Below, one piece after another: positions 25,133 through 45,467 of a stretch of 64,000 nt of DNA (positions are counted from its first letter, which is position 1; each line of letters starts with the position of its first letter). Below the pieces are notes generated by a model, which saw only the letters and a list, made by a program, of their open reading frames with translations, was not told the DNA's origin and made no database searches. A program made the position numbers and the translations under genes. Location of the stretch: positions 55,018-119,017 of the forward strand of contig JAHEIL010000015.1 of assembly GCA_024639405.1 (NCBI GenBank). The letters are read 5' to 3'. Source of the stretch: Crocinitomicaceae bacterium. GTDB lineage: Bacteria > Bacteroidota > Bacteroidia > Flavobacteriales_D > Crocinitomicaceae.

Positions 25133-26164
25133 TTACCTCCAACGCTTTTTAAATAACGCGTGGTTTAAATTTGTATAAGAAAGCGAAAATTCTAAGGAAC
25201 CGCCATAATATGCTTTCCGCATAATGGATGTTGTTATATCATATGAAACATTAAACTTAAATCCTTTAAATTGCAATGCAAGAGTTGGGGAAACAGCATC
25301 ATTTACTCTGTAATATGCCCCAAATCCAATATAGGCATCTTGAGAAAATCCAGTAATAGAAGCGCCGTCATTCAAACGATAGCGCATAATTAATCCTAAA
25401 ATTGTTTCCAAATGAGGCCCTTGTATAAATTGCAATACATTACCATCTATGGCCCAATCTCTATTTGGAAGATCAGCTACTACACCAGCGTGTAAAACAT
25501 ACTTTCTAAACAAACGATTGCCATCTACCGTTGTAAAACGCATCAATGGTTGATTCACGTGATATACCGAAAAACCTGCTTGAATTTTAAAGTTATTATT
25601 CCGTTGGAAAGACGATTTATTTACGTCATACTCATAATAAATTCCTGATGATGCATCAAAATAACTCATTATATTCAACGTGTTTTCTTCACCAGATAAC
25701 TGTGTTTGGTCAAATTGATAACCGTTCCACTGTGACATAAATTTTAAGGCTGATATAGAAGCAGAGCGCATGCCAAAACCACTTTGAATTCCCAAAGATA
25801 AACTATGACCTGTTCTTCCAAATGGTAAAATTCCATTTAAAGTTAATGAACCAGTTTGACTTCCAAATTTGGAATCTCCACCAATATCGTTGTTAAATAA
25901 AATTCCAATTCCTAAATGGGCTTTGTCGTTTAATTTTGATTTTCCAATGTTAAAATCCGCCCCTATCGAAGTAGTAGTAAACTGTGTCCCTGCCCCTAAC
26001 CATTGATTACGATGGTTAATGATAACACGTTCCCAACCATTATAAACTCCAGCTGCGCCAGGATTGATTAATAATGGCGTATGAAATGTTTGTGTAAAAT
26101 GTAAATCTTGTGCAAAGAAAGTCGCTGACAAAAATGCACAACATACGAACAAATAATATTTCAT
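25133..26164 (-). CDS. PorP/SprF-family T9SS outer membrane protein
   Basis: 343-aa beta-barrel with a signal peptide (ends near FFAQ). QDLHFTQTFHTPLLINPGAAGVYNGWERV followed by NHRNQW is the family signature. PorP/SprF proteins work with T9SS to secrete or anchor partners that carry type B (CHU_C) C-terminal domains. Here the partner is very likely the 1022-aa CHU_C protein encoded 3 bp upstream on the same strand. That pairing is well known for sprB-sprF in Flavobacterium. The gene ends flush against the convergent small membrane gene. Confidence 0.92.
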   Translation of the reverse strand: MKYYLFVCCAFLSATFFAQDLHFTQTFHTPLLINPGAAGVYNGWERVIINHRNQWLGAGTQFTTTSIGADFNIGKSKLNDKAHLGIGILFNNDIGGDSKFGSQTGSLTLNGILPFGRTGHSLSLGIQSGFGMRSASISALKFMSQWNGYQFDQTQLSGEENTLNIMSYFDASSGIYYEYDVNKSSFQRNNNFKIQAGFSVYHVNQPLMRFTTVDGNRLFRKYVLHAGVVADLPNRDWAIDGNVLQFIQGPHLETILGLIMRYRLNDGASITGFSQDAYIGFGAYYRVNDAVSPTLALQFKGFKFNVSYDITTSIMRKAYYGGSLEFSLSYTNLNHALFKKRWR

Positions 26165-26167
26165 CTC

Positions 26168-29100
26168 TTAACGTATTAAAGTTATGTTTCCAGATAATAT
26201 TTCAGAAGTCCCATCTTTCATTTGCACCTCCAAGACATATGCATATACACCCATGTTGCATGCTTCGCCCTTATAAGTTCCGTCCCATTTTAAATTTTTA
26301 TCTGAAGAATTCACGAGTAAATTACCCCATCGGTCAAACAACTGAAAAGTAAAGGATTTTACATTATTACCAACGATTATTGTTAAATATTCATTGGCAG
26401 TATTGCCCGATCCATTAGGTGAAAAACCTGTTGGAACTTGAACACCTTTCACACAATCAATAGAAGAATAATCTGGATCGCAAGGATCTAACGGATCAGA
26501 ATTACCTGTTACCTCAGCGCCATCTGTTAAACCATCGCCATCCGTATCAGGATTGTTAGGATCTGTTCCTAAAGTTGCCTCAATCGCGTCAATTAAACCA
26601 TCTCCATCTGTGTCTATTTGACAGCCTGGCAAAGAATTATCTGGGTCACACGGATCTAATGGATTAGAACCATTCACATTTTCTAAACCATCATTTATTC
26701 CGTCGCCATCTGTGTCGGGATTTGTTGGATTTGTGCCCAATGTTGCTTCTTGACTATTAATTAAACCATCATTATCTTGGTCACAAGGACCAGCATTTAC
26801 ATTAGGAACACACGGGTTGGTGTTTTCTGGATCTAATTCATTGCTTACACCGTCTCCATCTGTATCAACTGTTGACGATTCAAACGCATCTATAATATCA
26901 TCTCCATCTGTATCCAATGGAGCAGCAGGATTTCCACCAACTTCTGCATTATCATTTTCTCCATCGCCATCAGAATCTGGATTATTTGGGTCTGTTCCAG
27001 CAATCGCTTCATTCGCATCACTTAAACCGTCACCATCAGCATCTACAATTGGAACATCTGGCACAAATACTGCCACAATATTTTCAACGCCAGTAATTGT
27101 AATGCTATTTGTATCACTATTAATAGGCGCTACCATAGGTCCTGTTGTATACGTCCAATGATCAAAAACATAACCTGTATTTGCTTGAGCAATTAAATTT
27201 GTTGCAATCCCACCATAATATTGAGTATTCCAAGGATATGTTGGCGCCCAAATCGAATTTACTTTAATCGATCCAGCTCCAGCAGGTTGAACATTAAATG
27301 TCGTGTTAAATGGTCCAGTAACATCATAACAATCAATCATTCCTTGTTGCAATGCTATACATCGAGTATTGATGAACGTTTTCATAGCTAAAACCTTTGA
27401 TTGCCAATCTGCAAACGTTCCTCCCCATTTAGTAACTTGACCTTGCATTTCTGGAGAAATCTCGTTGACCATACTATCAAGCAATTGATTCATGTATGCA
27501 CATGAAAAGTAGGTGTTTACCAAATCAATGTAACGCGTTACATAATATTGTTCAACTACTGGATTTTCTAATATTAATTTTTTCAAGATAGCTGTATGCC
27601 CTTGCCCACCAGGATTTGGTAAGTTTTCAGCGTTACAAGGGTCTGCATTTGCTGATGCATCCGGAATCCCTGTATAATTAGTGTAATGTCCAAACGTTGC
27701 ATCCATATCCCAAAGCGTGTAACGCCATTTTTTCTTGTCTCCTAAAGGATCTAAACCGCGCCACCATGCTGTATTCCAATTCAACCAATCTTGGTTTACA
27801 ACATATGAATTGAACATAAAATAATCACACAAGGATTGCCAATTGAAAACACTGTCAACGTAATTAAAATTAGCGGCAACACCCATATTGTTGGTTGCTA
27901 TGTAATTTTTTAAGGCATTCCAATTCGTTAATGCATTTGGAGCGCCATATTCTTGCCAGGTTCCTCCCCATGTTTTTAAATATTCTAAATTGAATTTATC
28001 TTGATCAAAATAATAATCTGTATAATCATGGTCATCAGCTTTTTCTCGAATTTCGTAAACCCCCCAATATTGACCATTTAGGTAAACAACACACGGGCGC
28101 CATGTTCGTTCATCTAATTTCATGTCTGCCCGAATAGAAAGTGTATGAACAAAAGCATCGCGAATGTGTGCACCATCTTCAAAAGAATAATTATCGCTCG
28201 CTGCAGGCTTTAAAATTACACGTTGAAATTTGTCACGCGTACTTTCTGGGAAAATTTGATGTTCCAATTCAGCTGCATAGCCAAATTGATCGCGCGTTAT
28301 GTAATCGAATCCTCTTTGCGGGTATGCCCAAGAATCATTTCCGTGTTTGTTAAAATCACCTTGTCCTTCATCAATAAAAGCACCATTCTCTTCAAATAGT
28401 TCAAAAGCTCCTACAGTAGGTGTTTGATTGCCGTTTGCCATCAAATTATAAACCCCTTGACTACAAACCGATACTACAGGAACGGTATGCGTCACATTTA
28501 TAAAGTAAGAATTTGTTTCAATAAATGATGGTTGGTTTGTGCTAAATGCCGCTGCTCTCAAAACGGTTGTTGCGGTAATATTTATTGGACCTGTGTAAAG
28601 CGTTGATGTAACAGTTGGAGTTGTACCATTTGTTGTATATCGAATAGAAGCTGAGGCATCAGAACAAGTAATTGTTGCAGTTTGAGCTCCTGAATAAAAA
28701 CCTGGCGCTAAACTAATAACAGGTGTAGGCGTGTAAAAATTTTGTCCACCTGTATTGGCATTATTAGGGGTAGGAGTTGTGAATAATTTCCAAGTAGCTG
28801 CTCCGTTGGTTTCTCTACCGACAGAGTGATCGGCCTTCGTTAAGTGAATTATTTTAATAGAATCTACAACAGCTCCTGAAGGATTTGATAAAATTATCCA
28901 ATCAAATTTTGTTTGTTTAAGGTTGAAATTTGGGTGCAATTGATTCGCGTTTACCAAATTACGCTTTGAACAAAAAGCCATGATATAACCATTCGCATTA
29001 ATTGTTCCTGATGGAATTTGCCATTTCGTTAAATTTGTTGCTTTATCAGATAAATAATAACCTGTTAAATTTACTGATGTTGCTCCTGCGTTGTAAATTT

Positions 29101-29236
29101 CTATCCAATCTTCTTTCTCTCCATATGCATCTGAAGGGCCAGAAATATTCGAACAAGAATATTCATTTATATACAATTGAGCAGAGCCAAATAAAGGTAT
29201 AACAATCAAAAGTAGTAATAGAAATTTATTTTTCAT
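26168..29236 (-). CDS. Giant surface protein: LTD, CotH kinase, TSP3 repeats, CHU_C type B sorting domain
   Basis: 1022 aa from the ATG at 29236, chosen because [20 protein letters not shown] is a full signal peptide; the track start is eight codons upstream. Domain order: lamin-tail domain (about 20-155, INEYSCSN...EDWIEIYN); a chitobiase/HexA C-terminal-like beta domain (about 165-250); a CotH kinase-like domain (about 255-620, with [13 protein letters not shown] and [12 protein letters not shown]); and an InlB-like B-repeat (about 640-725). Then come Ca2+-binding thrombospondin type 3 repeats of DTDGDG units (about 730-925) and the CHU_C gliding-motility C-terminal domain (about 930-1022). 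T9SS cargo. CotH domains phosphorylate proteins in spores; the target here is unknown. Partner SprF follows. Confidence 0.9.
26450..27060 (-). repeat. Ca2+-binding TSP3 repeat-coding region
   Basis: Imperfect DNA repeats that encode DTDGDG(L/I)(I/T)D-type units, with near-identical stretches such as [14 protein letters not shown]. They are within the CotH/CHU_C gene and explain the repetitive DNA; this is not an independent element. Confidence 0.85.
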
Positions 29237-29381
29237 CTGTTGCTTTTTAATTAAAATCAAGCGTTTTTAATCCAATAATCAGTATCAATATTACAAAATA
29301 ATTTCATGAAATATTGACTTTTAATTAATATTAGACGTTTATTAAGTAATTTAGTTGTTTAAATAATCAAATCATTTCAAC

Positions 29382-40032: not shown

Positions 40033-42168
40033 ATGCCAAAGAAAAGTTCAAATAAATCCAATAAATTAAAAAACTCACTAAGTCATGTTGTGCGTTCTGT
40101 TTTTGAAAAAAATAACAGCAGCGAGTTGTCTCATAAACAAGTTTGTACGCTTATTGATGTTCGTGAAAACGCATTACGAAAATTGGTCTTTGATATTTTA
40201 GAAAATCTTGTTCAACAAGGTGTAATTATAAAAAGAGGTCATGGAATATACAAAGCCTCTAATTCAGACACAGGATTAATCGGTGTTATAGAATTAACAA
40301 ATCGTGGTGCAGGTTTTGTTGTTTCTGATGATTCTGAAACAGATATTTACATTGCTCCTCAAAACACAGGTCATGCTTTAAATGGCGACACCGTTAAAGT
40401 TCGTGTTTTTAAACATGGTAAAACTAGAAAAGAGGGAGAAATCATTACTGTTATTCAACGCGAACGCTCTCAATTTGTTGGTACAATCGAATTACAAGAT
40501 AAATTTGGTTTTTTAATACCTGATAATTTAAAAACAGGTACAGATATTTATATTCCAAAAGAAAAATTAAATGGCGCAAAAAATGGGGATAAAGCACTTG
40601 TTAAAATAACTATTTGGCCTAAATCTTCCAAAAATCCATACGGTGAAGTATTACAAGTATTAGGTAGACCAGGAACCAACGATACTGAAATGATTAGTAT
40701 CCTAATGAATCAAGGTATTGAAACTGTTTTTCCATCTGAAGTTCTTCAAGCTGCTGAAAAAATTGGGATAGAATTAGATCCAATGGAAGTTGCAAAAAGA
40801 AAAGATTTTAGAAATACGACTACTTTTACAATTGACCCACTTGATGCGCGTGATTTTGACGATGCATTATCAATAAAAGAATTAGAAAACGGACATTATG
40901 AAATTGGTGTTCACATCGCTGATGTAAGTTATTATGTTACCGAAGGTAGCCCGATGGACGAAGAAGCGCTTAAACGTTCTAATTCTGTTTATCTAGTAGA
41001 TCGTGTAGTACCAATGCTACCCGAACAATTATCCAACTTAGCATGCTCACTTCGTCCTAATGAAGATAAATTTAGTTTTTCTGCCGTTTTTGAAATGGAT
41101 GAAAAGGGAAAAATTTACAATGAATGGTTCGGTAAAACTGTAATCCATTCTAACCGAAGATTTACCTACGAAGAAGCACAAGAAATTATAGAAGGTAAAA
41201 AAGGTGACTTTGAAAAAGAAATACATATTTTCGATAAAATAGCTAAAATTTTGCGAAATAAACGTATGAAAAATGGTGCTTTAAGTATTGAATCTGAAGA
41301 GATGCGATTTGTTTTGGATGAAAATGGGATACCAATTGATGTTAAAATTAAAACATCAAAAGACGCGCATAAATTGATTGAAGAATTTATGTTATTAGCA
41401 AATAAACAAGTCGCATTATTTGTTGCTAAACCTAAAAAAAACAGTGATAAAATTCCTTTTATTTACCGAGTCCATGATAAACCAGATCCAGCAAAAATTG
41501 CCTTATTTAATGTGTTTATTGATAAATTTGGTTATAAATTATCATTTAATCACCCAGATGAAATTTCAAAAAGTATCAATTTATTATTAAATGATATTCG
41601 TTTAAATAATGAATATTCTTTGATACAAACAATGGCAATTCGTTCAATGGCTAAAGCAACATATGAAACAAGTAATATTGGACATTATGGTTTAGCGTTT
41701 GACTATTACACGCATTTTACTTCTCCAATTAGACGTTATGCAGATTTAATGGTGCACCGAGTACTTCAAACGATTTTAACAGGCGGTAAAATTAATTATA
41801 GCTCTTACCTTGATGATATTTGTAAACGAATTTCTAGAATGGAGCGAAAAGCAGTTGAAGCAGAACGTGAATCAATAAAATACTTCCAAACACTCTATGT
41901 TAAAGATAAAATTGGTTTAACTACAACAGGTACAGTTTCTGGAATTGCAGAATTTGGATTATTTGTTAAAATGGATGAAAACTATTGTGAAGGCATGATT
42001 CCTTTATTAGATATTCCAGGTGATCGTTTTTATTTCGATAAAGAAAAGTATCGAATTATTGGAGCTCGAACAGAAAAAGAATACAATTTTGGTGATAAAG
42101 TAACAGTAAAAATTAAAGAAGTTAACACCAAAAAAAGACAAATTGATCTAACGCTTGTTATAGATTAA
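40033..42168 (+). CDS. rnr: Ribonuclease R
   Basis: Processive 3'-5' exoribonuclease able to degrade structured RNA. 711 aa: N-terminal winged-helix/cold-shock-like OB domains (about 20-215), the RNB catalytic domain (about 255-590) with DPLDARDFDDALSI holding the metal-binding Asp residues, and a C-terminal S1 domain (about 630-710, GTVSGIAEFGLFVKMDENYCEGMI). HFTSPIRRYADLMVHR near 570 is the RNase II/R signature. Its last 11 bases overlap the convergent response regulator gene. Confidence 0.96.
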   Translation: MPKKSSNKSNKLKNSLSHVVRSVFEKNNSSELSHKQVCTLIDVRENALRKLVFDILENLVQQGVIIKRGHGIYKASNSDTGLIGVIELTNRGAGFVVSDDSETDIYIAPQNTGHALNGDTVKVRVFKHGKTRKEGEIITVIQRERSQFVGTIELQDKFGFLIPDNLKTGTDIYIPKEKLNGAKNGDKALVKITIWPKSSKNPYGEVLQVLGRPGTNDTEMISILMNQGIETVFPSEVLQAAEKIGIELDPMEVAKRKDFRNTTTFTIDPLDARDFDDALSIKELENGHYEIGVHIADVSYYVTEGSPMDEEALKRSNSVYLVDRVVPMLPEQLSNLACSLRPNEDKFSFSAVFEMDEKGKIYNEWFGKTVIHSNRRFTYEEAQEIIEGKKGDFEKEIHIFDKIAKILRNKRMKNGALSIESEEMRFVLDENGIPIDVKIKTSKDAHKLIEEFMLLANKQVALFVAKPKKNSDKIPFIYRVHDKPDPAKIALFNVFIDKFGYKLSFNHPDEISKSINLLLNDIRLNNEYSLIQTMAIRSMAKATYETSNIGHYGLAFDYYTHFTSPIRRYADLMVHRVLQTILTGGKINYSSYLDDICKRISRMERKAVEAERESIKYFQTLYVKDKIGLTTTGTVSGIAEFGLFVKMDENYCEGMIPLLDIPGDRFYFDKEKYRIIGARTEKEYNFGDKVTVKIKEVNTKKRQIDLTLVID

Positions 42169-42907
42169 ATATCATGTCAATTGTTAATTCATCTTCTTTT
42201 AAGATCTTAATTACTTTAAAAATATCTTTAAAATAAATGGTAGGATAATCAATTCGCTGAACTTTTAATTGATTAATTAAATAAAGGTCTGAAAGCAGTA
42301 TGAAGATATCTCCAGTTTTTTCTTTAATTTCATTAATTGAACAGTGTAATTTATACGTTGAACTATTTGTATAAATTACGATTTCAGATTGAATCGCTTC
42401 TATGAAATAAATATCCCCTAATTGAATTTTAACAATTTTATTTTCAGATTTTATAAATAATGTATCATTAATTATTTTTGAATGATCCATGATTGAATAT
42501 AATAAATTACGCTCTTTTATTAATTCATCTTCTTTTTTAAACTTATACAAAGCCATTTCTATAGCAGTTTGAAGTTCAATTTCTTTAAATGGTTTTATAA
42601 TATATCCAAACGGTTCACATTTTTTTGCTCTACTTAACGTAACTTCATCTACATATGCAGTTAAAAAAATAATTGGAATGGTAAAAGATTTCATTATTAA
42701 TTCAGCAGTGTCTAAACCTGTTAATTGACCTTGAAGCATGATATCCATTAAAATTAAATCAGGCTGCTGGTTTTTAATCATAGTTAAAGCAACTTCTCCA
42801 GAAGCAGCAATACCAATAACAAAAAATCCTAATTTTTGTAAACTATGTTGAATATCACTTGCAACAATTGCTTCGTCTTCAACGATGAGAATGTGGTTTT
42901 TTAACAT
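42158..42907 (-). CDS. Orphan response regulator with LytTR-like output domain
   Basis: 249 aa. The receiver domain (1-120) is complete: acidic pocket near residues 11-12, phospho-acceptor Asp55 in ILMDIMLQG, Thr83 and Lys105 in IKPF. The C-terminal part (about 150-249) has the LytTR outline, with GDIYFIEAIQSEIVIYT and a final IFKVI strand. But the strongly conserved F(V/I)R(I/V)HRS(Y)(I/L)VN segment reads FILLSDLYLINQLK, so DNA contacts may differ. No histidine kinase is adjacent. Promoter TATATTTG is just upstream. It may act through protein contact rather than DNA. Confidence 0.85.
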   Translation of the reverse strand: MLKNHILIVEDEAIVASDIQHSLQKLGFFVIGIAASGEVALTMIKNQQPDLILMDIMLQGQLTGLDTAELIMKSFTIPIIFLTAYVDEVTLSRAKKCEPFGYIIKPFKEIELQTAIEMALYKFKKEDELIKERNLLYSIMDHSKIINDTLFIKSENKIVKIQLGDIYFIEAIQSEIVIYTNSSTYKLHCSINEIKEKTGDIFILLSDLYLINQLKVQRIDYPTIYFKDIFKVIKILKEDELTIDMIFNL

Positions 42908-44005: not shown

Positions 44006-44061
44006 TTTTTAGTAAATGCAACTTTTTTTGTATCATTTATGTCTATCAATAGATACTTTGT

Positions 44062-44598
44062 ATGGATGATGCAACGCTAATTAAAGAATGTGTGAAAGGA
44101 AACGCAAAAGCACAACGCTTTTTGTTTGAAAAGTTCGCACCTAAAATGTTAACTGTTTGTATTCGTTATGCGAAAAATAAAAGTGATGCAGAAGATGTTT
44201 TGCAAGATGCTTTTATCAAAGTATTTAATAAAATAAGTGAATTTAAAAAAGAAGGTTCTTTGGAAGGTTGGATTAGAAGGATTATGGTAAATACTTCTTT
44301 AGATCAAATTAGAAAAAACAGTAAATTTTCGAATGATACAGATTTAGAAGCTGTATCTTATAAATTAGAAAACAATGATTTTACGTTTGAAAATCTAGTT
44401 TCTGAAGATTTATTAAAACTAATTAATTCAATGCCTAATGGGTATAGAATTGTCTTTAATATGTTTGCCATTGAAGGTTACTCTCATCAAGAGATAGCTT
44501 CAACTTTAGGTGTTACAGAAAACACATCCAAATCCCAGTACTTAAGAGCAAGAAGTTTTTTAAAAAACGAATTAGAAAAAATACATTTTGAAAGATAA
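44062..44598 (+). CDS. ECF-type RNA polymerase sigma factor
   Basis: 178 aa. Region 2 (about 20-80: FEKFAPKMLTVCIRYAKNKSDAEDVLQDAFIKVFNKI) binds core polymerase and the -10 element. Region 4 (about 118-172: GYRIVFNMFAIEGYSHQEIASTLGVTENTSKSQYLRARSFLK) is the helix-turn-helix for -35 recognition. No region 1 or 3, so group IV. It overlaps the next gene by 11 bp. That gene encodes a membrane protein with an anti-sigma-like N-terminus, so the sigma factor is probably held inactive by it. An inverted repeat TCTAT-CA-ATAGA lies just before the start. Confidence 0.92.
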   Translation: MDDATLIKECVKGNAKAQRFLFEKFAPKMLTVCIRYAKNKSDAEDVLQDAFIKVFNKISEFKKEGSLEGWIRRIMVNTSLDQIRKNSKFSNDTDLEAVSYKLENNDFTFENLVSEDLLKLINSMPNGYRIVFNMFAIEGYSHQEIASTLGVTENTSKSQYLRARSFLKNELEKIHFER

Positions 44599-45433
44599 AG
44601 ATTACATAAAAGACCTGTTTAAAGATTCTCTAGAAAACTTAGAATCTCCTGTTCGGCCAGAACTTTGGAACGCGGTGTCTTCGTCAATTAGCACATCCTC
44701 TACACCTGCTGTTGGTTCAACTATTTTCTCTACTTCTAAACTAATAATAGCTTCTGTTTCTCTTATTACAATTGGAAGTTTTACGTATTATCTTTCAACA
44801 GATTCAACTCCTCAAAAAACGTTTGATTCATCTCAAAAAATTAATAAATCTTCATTAGAAGTGATGAATCAAGCTAGTAGAAAAGAGAAAAAATCTGCTG
44901 ATATTTATAACATTAAGAAGATCAATTCTAATAATCAACTCGATTTTAGCAATCAATCATACGAGTTACCAGTTGTTGATTTTACAAACTCACCTATTAT
45001 TAATACTGTAGTTTCCAATTCAAACAACCCTGTTTTGGAAAACCATTCTTCGGAATTAGTTTCTAATATTATTGAACAAAAACCGAATCAAACTCCCGTT
45101 TCAACCCCTTTAATTGAAGAAACAAATCAATCGATTAATAATATTGAAACAACGGATCATCAATTTGTTTTACCAAATGTGTTTACACCAAACAATGATG
45201 GTTCAAATGATAAGTTTGAAATCAAAGGATTAAATTTGACAGATTTTAGTTTGGTTATTATTAATTCCAAAAACGAAACGATTTTCCAAACAACCGAGAA
45301 TGATTTTTCTTGGGATGGTCGTCTACAAAATGGTGATTTAGCTCCTTCCGGAAATTATATCTATTACATTGTAGGTAAAACCATAAGTAAAAAAGATTAC
45401 ACAAAGATATCTCAACTATCCATTATATATTAA
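44588..45433 (+). CDS. Membrane anti-sigma-like protein with C-terminal CHU_C domain
   Basis: 281 aa, starting at a TTG inside the sigma gene; no ATG lies near. The cytoplasmic N-terminus (about 1-45, DLFKDSLENLESPVRPELWNAV) resembles the short anti-sigma regions found beside ECF factors in Bacteroidota. One membrane helix follows (about 50-70), then a low-complexity Ser/Asn/Thr-rich periplasmic linker (about 75-185). At the end is a gliding-motility-associated C-terminal (CHU_C) domain, about 190-281: LPNVFTPNNDGSNDKFEIKG, then FSWDGRLQNG. CHU_C is normally a T9SS type B sorting signal on secreted proteins. Here it is tied to the inner membrane. The role as secretion or surface sensor is inference. 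A terminator follows. Confidence 0.82.
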   Translation: MKDKDYIKDLFKDSLENLESPVRPELWNAVSSSISTSSTPAVGSTIFSTSKLIIASVSLITIGSFTYYLSTDSTPQKTFDSSQKINKSSLEVMNQASRKEKKSADIYNIKKINSNNQLDFSNQSYELPVVDFTNSPIINTVVSNSNNPVLENHSSELVSNIIEQKPNQTPVSTPLIEETNQSINNIETTDHQFVLPNVFTPNNDGSNDKFEIKGLNLTDFSLVIINSKNETIFQTTENDFSWDGRLQNGDLAPSGNYIYYIVGKTISKKDYTKISQLSIIY

Positions 45434-45440
45434 TTAAAAA

Positions 45441-45467
45441 AGCCCTTAAGTAATTAAGGGCTTTTTT
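45441..45467. terminator. Bidirectional terminator between the sigma operon and tRNA-Cys
   Basis: Nine-bp perfect stem AGCCCTTAA / TTAAGGGCT with a GTAA loop, A-run on the left and T-run on the right. It can stop transcripts from both sides. Confidence 0.92.

Follow-up and report, generated by a model that had tools for sequence, protein, structure and literature searches.

The locus described here lies within the window, a stretch of 64,000 nucleotides of DNA from a Crocinitomicaceae bacterium, and consists of two overlapping genes on the forward strand. The first (44062–44598, +) encodes an ECF sigma factor of 178 amino acids, in which Sigma70_r2 (62.8 bits) and Sigma70_r4_2 (55.2 bits) were both recognized above the Pfam cut-off. 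The second (44588–45433, +) begins with TTG, at a position homologous to the start of its orthologues, and encodes a putative anti-sigma factor of 281 amino acids. The two open reading frames share 11 bp; both coordinates and Pfam agree with the original prediction of an ECF sigma gene and an overlapping partner. The sigma factor adjoins its partner gene, and the label ECF21 is applied from this context and not from a class model. A predicted ECF-type promoter of the operon, TGCAACTTTTTTTGTATCATTTATGTCT (TGCAAC, an 18-nt spacer and GTCT), is located at 44017–44044 (+), 17 nt 5′ of the ATG of the sigma gene. Directly 3′ of the partner gene, at 45436–45467 (+), a probable intrinsic terminator was read in the sequence, consisting of the hairpin AAAAAAGCCCTTAA-GTAA-TTAAGGGCTTTTTT and a run of T. 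This hairpin was not reported by a pattern scanner for terminators because its stem extends into the T stretch. A tRNA-Cys gene is present on the opposite strand, 3′ of the gene pair and the hairpin, and there is no PorP/SprF-like gene beside the pair at the locus. Near the sigma locus is a response regulator gene (42158–42907, −), which by its sequence probably has a LytTR DNA-binding part and the 3′ end of which overlaps a ribonuclease R gene (40033–42168, +); a tie of this response regulator gene to the sigma locus is not evident.

The partner protein opens with a 47-residue segment ahead of its membrane helix, and no Sec signal peptide was found at its N-terminus, as judged by hydropathy and the helices modeled by AlphaFold. 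These helices comprise residues 5–16 and 24–35. The two-helix segment (residues 5–35; 44600–44692, +) is presumed, from the AlphaFold model, conservation and a profile match, to bind sigma on the cytoplasmic side of the membrane; V22 and W27 within it are invariant in the 18 rows of alignment A2. There is one hydrophobic segment in the protein, a single transmembrane helix near residues 52–71 (44741–44800, +), the hydropathy of which is modest in the window copy (mean 1.61 vs. a family median of 2.05). The positive-inside comparison of lysine and arginine residues around this helix gave 59 vs. 60 and is neutral as to topology. The helix is followed by a disordered tether, approximately residues 72–190 (44801–45157, +), with pLDDT below 50 over most of its length and for nearly all of residues 39–185. 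The protein ends in a CHU_C-type domain (residues 195–281; 45170–45430, +), which lacks the NRWG motif discussed below. Its fold was modeled with confidence by AlphaFold. PF13585 scored 54.3 bits at residues 195–268, against a cut-off of 27, and TIGR04131 (‘T9SS type B sorting domain’) scored 40.5 bits, against a cut-off of 35. PF13585 was likewise recognized in each of the 18 rows of alignment A2. The architecture originally proposed, with an anti-sigma-like N-terminus, one membrane helix, a long linker and a CHU_C domain, is thus borne out by AlphaFold, hydropathy and the two domain models.

With respect to the tether, its length is 117–136 residues in 22 close orthologues, in which its mean identity is 22%, compared to 55% for the N-terminus and 48% for the CHU_C domain. 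The shortest among 60 measured has at least 117 residues. An extended polypeptide spans 0.34 nm per residue, and a tether of 117 residues, fully extended to approximately 40 nm, is long enough to cross the periplasm. The retention of length without sequence suggests that the tether may serve as a spacer.

The pairing of the two genes was surveyed in 60 related genomes, 26 of them of the same genus. Full-length orthologues of the partner were found in 22 of the 26 genus genomes and in two sister genera (n = 24), and the four genus genomes without one are 64–85% complete. In 23 of the 24 orthologues the end of the sigma gene abuts the start of the partner or runs into it, the two being separated or overlapping by a few bases; in the remaining one (L031) the contig end falls at the sigma position. 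Four more distant short CHU_C proteins, from other genera and families, likewise follow this sigma factor. In a wider scan of named genomes with a sigma profile, 38 of 79 sigma-adjacent partners carried CHU_C, as called by a profile trained on cargo domains only. Fluviicola chungangensis (L043), a culturable relative, is among the bacteria with the pair. The conserved pairing rules out a chance juxtaposition of the two genes. A second such pair in the same genome was looked for at eight CHU_C loci (L001–L008), which had no sigma-like open reading frame within their short flanks.

The remaining partners among the 79 were 20 long proteins, 19 short ones and two that were cut off or unclassified. 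OMP_b-brl_2 was recognized in 11 of the 20 long partners, and related sigma factors are thus paired with partners tipped by a β-barrel. When the CHU_C set was compared to the barrel set, the N-terminal 36 columns matched with an E-value of 8e-8 (hhalign), and profile comparison with the short set gave a match over 68 columns, including the transmembrane helix (E 5e-9). The AlphaFold model of a barrel-tipped relative (L069) has helices at residues 4–16 and 23–34, a transmembrane segment at 40–65, disorder from 68 to 240 and a barrel at 262–489. On the sigma tree the window sequence falls within a supported clade of 17 CHU_C-paired sigma factors, and the CHU_C tip may have had a single origin; the three tip types require seven changes on this tree. 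The third kind of tip is that of the short partners of Sphingobacteriaceae (L065, L068, L073, L079, L091, L096, L097, L104 and L105; 226–264 amino acids). These retain the N-terminus and the transmembrane helix; at the C-terminal end, where neither barrel nor CHU_C is present, a conserved stretch of acidic residues precedes an INLG-like motif.

The layout seen in the two AlphaFold models, apart from the tip of the window protein, is that of the Dma proteins of Bacteroides. Dma2 has an anti-sigma domain, a transmembrane helix, a disordered tether and a β-barrel, and adjoins an ECF21 sigma factor; Dma represses Das (PMC13088901). The likeness extends to the adjacent ECF sigma gene, the N-terminal anti-sigma segment, the membrane helix, the long disordered tether and a C-terminal module facing the outer membrane. 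Homology is drawn through the barrel-tipped relatives found in this analysis, and the B. thetaiotaomicron Dma was matched by the description of its layout. Since the N-termini are homologous and the layouts match, the window protein is regarded as a Dma-like protein with a replaced tip. The architecture is very probably of this kind, with the barrel swapped for CHU_C. The outer-membrane β-barrel that marks a Dma is not present at the C-terminus, and the protein is not filed as one.

It is apparent that the genome has a type IX secretion system (T9SS) with type B cargo, since it contains an intact SprA in one piece, nine PorP/SprF-like genes above the cut-off and 27 CHU_C domains above the cut-off. 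A normal pair of cargo and shuttle is present in the window, where a PorP/SprF gene (25133–26164, −; TIGR03519, 145 bits) lies directly downstream of a type B CHU_C gene encoding 1030 amino acids (26168–29260, −). Type B tags require PorP/SprF shuttles, and orphan tags without an adjacent shuttle gene can share one (PMC12618676).

The CHU_C tip of the anti-sigma proteins differs from the tags of true cargo. A motif of NRWG type, N-R-W-G or a near form in the first β-hairpin, was present in 40 of 40 cargo CHU_C domains and in none of 64 anti-sigma CHU_C domains, the latter including a few from a genome reached twice. The window tip has INSKNE where NRWG would stand. A glycine in the last strand is found in 97% of cargo domains vs. 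25% of anti-sigma domains, and the two groups share the FTPN-DG-ND, WDG and G-Y-Y positions. In Flavobacterium johnsoniae secretion depends on every one of five conserved motifs in a type B tag (PMC12618676), and NRWG is presumably one of these five. The original prediction had taken CHU_C as the usual export signal. This is contradicted by the absence of the NRWG core and by the N-terminal segment that stands in place of a signal peptide, and the same two features rule out that the partner is a normal T9SS cargo protein. Without the NRWG core found in cargo tags, the tip is probably not exported and, judged from its sequence, is probably a docking version of the tag. Docking without export would suit a fixed sensor. 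Alternatively, having lost NRWG, the tip may be out of all contact with the T9SS. The tip shows no special likeness to the tags of the predicted regulon, with a best identity of about 30%. A tree of CHU_C domains gave one split between anti-sigma and cargo domains, with a support of only 42, and a fold search with the AlphaFold model found Ig-like structures in general, among them the T9SS protein PorZ, and nothing decisive.

The link of the pair to secretion comes from the recurrence of the sigma promoter motif before type B cargo genes. TGCAAC-N18-GTCT (GTCA in one case) precedes the sigma gene at an unchanged spacing in each of the 27 pairs examined, the copy in this genome being at C9:99034–99061. 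The presence of one motif before the sigma gene and before its predicted targets is a sequence-level sign of an autoregulated operon. A strict form, TGCAACYTTTT-N13-GTCT, gave 37 matches in the 26 genus genomes and none with the reversed control. In four genus genomes the relaxed motif gave 42 matches, compared to 24 for the reversed control. Four of the 42 precede the sigma/anti-sigma operon and ten precede other CHU_C cargo genes, where 0.21 were expected (P 1.2e-14; orthologous cargo genes are not independent in these counts, though several different cargo types are involved), and these 14 make up most of the surplus of 18. Within this genome alone, three of 17 non-sigma matches precede cargo genes (P 5e-5). 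In most sister genera the strict motif matches the sigma promoter alone, and in relatives with short partners a CATCTT form gave 12 matches in 10 genomes, some of them before the sigma gene. A match at 26233–26260 (−) of the window, 68 nt ahead of the PorP/SprF-like gene and within the coding sequence of the preceding CHU_C gene, was taken as chance because none was found at the orthologous genes of two relatives (G006 and G025).

Among 15 non-sigma target regions of sufficient length to be judged, 14 had a CHU_C gene and the other a gene with a type A T9SS tag and a loose motif. The targets include a secreted protein of about 124 amino acids followed by a CHU_C protein of 810–980, a protein of 148 amino acids followed by a CHU_C protein of about 647 and a PKD/CHU_C protein of about 600, and there are others besides. 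The strict motif also precedes genes for two choice-of-anchor-L CHU_C proteins of other genera, which belong to the same class as one target in this genome. Two of the three cargo tags in this genome are 61% identical to each other, for which reason these two may share one shuttle. Among the targets of the strict motif that were examined, none was recognized as a gene of the T9SS machinery. It is likely, as a prediction from the motif, that the regulon of this sigma factor consists of type B T9SS cargo; a weak point is that TGCAAC-N18-GTCT might be common to other ECF sigma factors. A regulon unrelated to secretion or surface proteins would have spoken against the original prediction, and the predicted targets are T9SS cargo. 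Two kinds of gene in these regions deserve separate mention. The small secreted-looking proteins L165:183-554 (124 amino acids) and L168:198-641 (148 amino acids), encoded downstream of the sigma motif and ahead of the CHU_C cargo gene, had no match in Pfam or NCBIfam and recur in relatives of the genus; they are possible cargo partners or chaperones. The type A cargo gene L167:259-1593, on contig C16 of this genome, has its loose motif 48 nt before the start, and may belong to the same regulon or represent a chance match.

A mechanism can be outlined in which sigma binding, topology, docking partner and direction of signaling are all inferred. The two genes would form a self-activating operon, and the two-helix N-terminus of the partner would keep sigma in the cytoplasm. 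One transmembrane helix would fix the partner in the inner membrane, and a disordered tether of about 120 residues would let the CHU_C tip reach the outer membrane. Free sigma would transcribe its own operon and type B cargo genes from TGCAAC-N18-GTCT promoters. The tip, lacking NRWG, would dock at a type B receptor, either a PorP/SprF-like shuttle or the SprA translocon, probably without being exported. Vacant receptors would capture the tip, and a pull or proteolysis would then strip the anti-sigma segment from sigma and turn on the cargo genes; when the receptors are filled by cargo the tip would be displaced and sigma held again. The combination of a tag-like tip and tag-bearing targets suggests that cargo synthesis may be coupled to type B secretion, and such coupling is plausible. 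A sigma/anti-sigma pair, a cargo regulon and some form of T9SS feedback, taken jointly, are somewhat favored, and the chances that the tip docks at the T9SS appear evenly balanced. The release of sigma on receptor vacancy is suggested tentatively, by argument rather than from data. The whole reading, that an inner-membrane anti-sigma factor with a non-exportable mimic of the tag reads the vacancy of a type B receptor or translocon and gates the cargo of that receptor, is put forward more tentatively still.

The main alternative, possible though rather doubtful, is that the protein is a Dma-like envelope sensor and nothing more, in which CHU_C is an outer-membrane-facing anchor that replaces the barrel and the signal is not T9SS occupancy. 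The signal would instead be the state of the outer membrane, the spacing of the envelope or a surface ligand. Homologous partners do have a barrel at the same place, and the loci affected by Dma1 and Dma2 concern vesiculation and polysaccharides (PMC13088901). Both the conserved length of the tether and the loss of NRWG agree with such an anchor. The motif targets, however, are T9SS cargo genes, which would be unexpected if the T9SS were not involved.

The original prediction was that the tip could dock on an idle T9SS or on a PorP/SprF protein and that sigma would be freed when the system is blocked or busy. The anatomy required is the same as that of the vacancy model, and in Porphyromonas gingivalis the tag-bearing protein PorA has been proposed to act through PorXY-SigP so that T9SS expression rises as T9SS operation declines (PMC7712824). 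The idea of a feedback on secretion gains from the motif before cargo genes, which ties sigma to secretion. Its direction is another matter: sigma is predicted to switch on cargo genes and its own operon, no machinery gene having been recognized among the strict-motif targets examined, and to make more cargo while the system is blocked would amount to positive feedback and worsen the blockage. Release triggered by blockage is disfavored for this reason and is improbable, whereas release triggered by vacancy is favored over it because it gives stable control. A fully functional type B tag, passed through SprA and presented at the cell surface by a shuttle with its N-terminus in the inner membrane, so that both membranes are spanned, would agree with the retained FTPN-DG-ND, WDG and G-Y-Y positions and with the length of the tether, but it is very improbable given the loss of NRWG and, mostly, of the last-strand glycine, the finding in F. 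johnsoniae that secretion ceases once any one of the five tag motifs, to which NRWG presumably belongs, is mutated (PMC12618676), and the prospect that a stuck substrate would occupy a translocon.

The proposed system has partial counterparts among those already known. The flagellar anti-sigma factor FlgM reports on a secretion machine, gating late cargo through sigma-28, and is itself exported. The resemblance is an analogy only, without homology, and the partner described here is membrane-anchored and probably not exported. It differs from Dma in the CHU_C domain that replaces the β-barrel, and in predicted targets that are T9SS cargo rather than the vesiculation and polysaccharide genes of Dma. 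In the PorA/PorXY-SigP system of P. gingivalis, a protein with a T9SS C-terminal domain also feeds an ECF sigma factor concerned with the T9SS. PorA, in contrast, is a surface protein with a signal peptide and an Ig-like domain; it is no anti-sigma factor and acts via a two-component system, and SigP controls machinery genes (PMC7712824). The type B cargo of F. johnsoniae, SprB and its relatives, has the same CHU_C/TIGR04131 C-terminal domain (PMC12618676), whereas the partner has a transmembrane anchor and is without signal peptide, NRWG or an adjacent shuttle gene. In the SM6 regulon of Flavobacterium psychrophilum, ECF-type promoters, T9SS genes and one ECF sigma/anti-sigma pair also occur together; there, a CGT box precedes the T9SS machinery genes GldN and PorU (PMC9723704). 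No description of a CHU_C-tipped anti-sigma factor was found in the open-licence literature.

The published links found between ECF sigma factors and the T9SS, SigP in P. gingivalis and SM6 in F. psychrophilum, concern machinery genes. For the matching of cargo production to the capacity for secretion, the locus offers a candidate sensor and its sigma factor, together with a promoter motif and a small predicted regulon of cargo genes. The idea of an anti-sigma factor that reaches across both membranes is widened from β-barrels to exchangeable tips. One motif, NRWG, separates sensor-type CHU_C domains from true cargo tags, and such sensors are currently annotated as T9SS cargo. If the proposal is correct, these bacteria may match the production of cargo to its secretion by means of an altered copy of the cargo tag carried on an anti-sigma factor.
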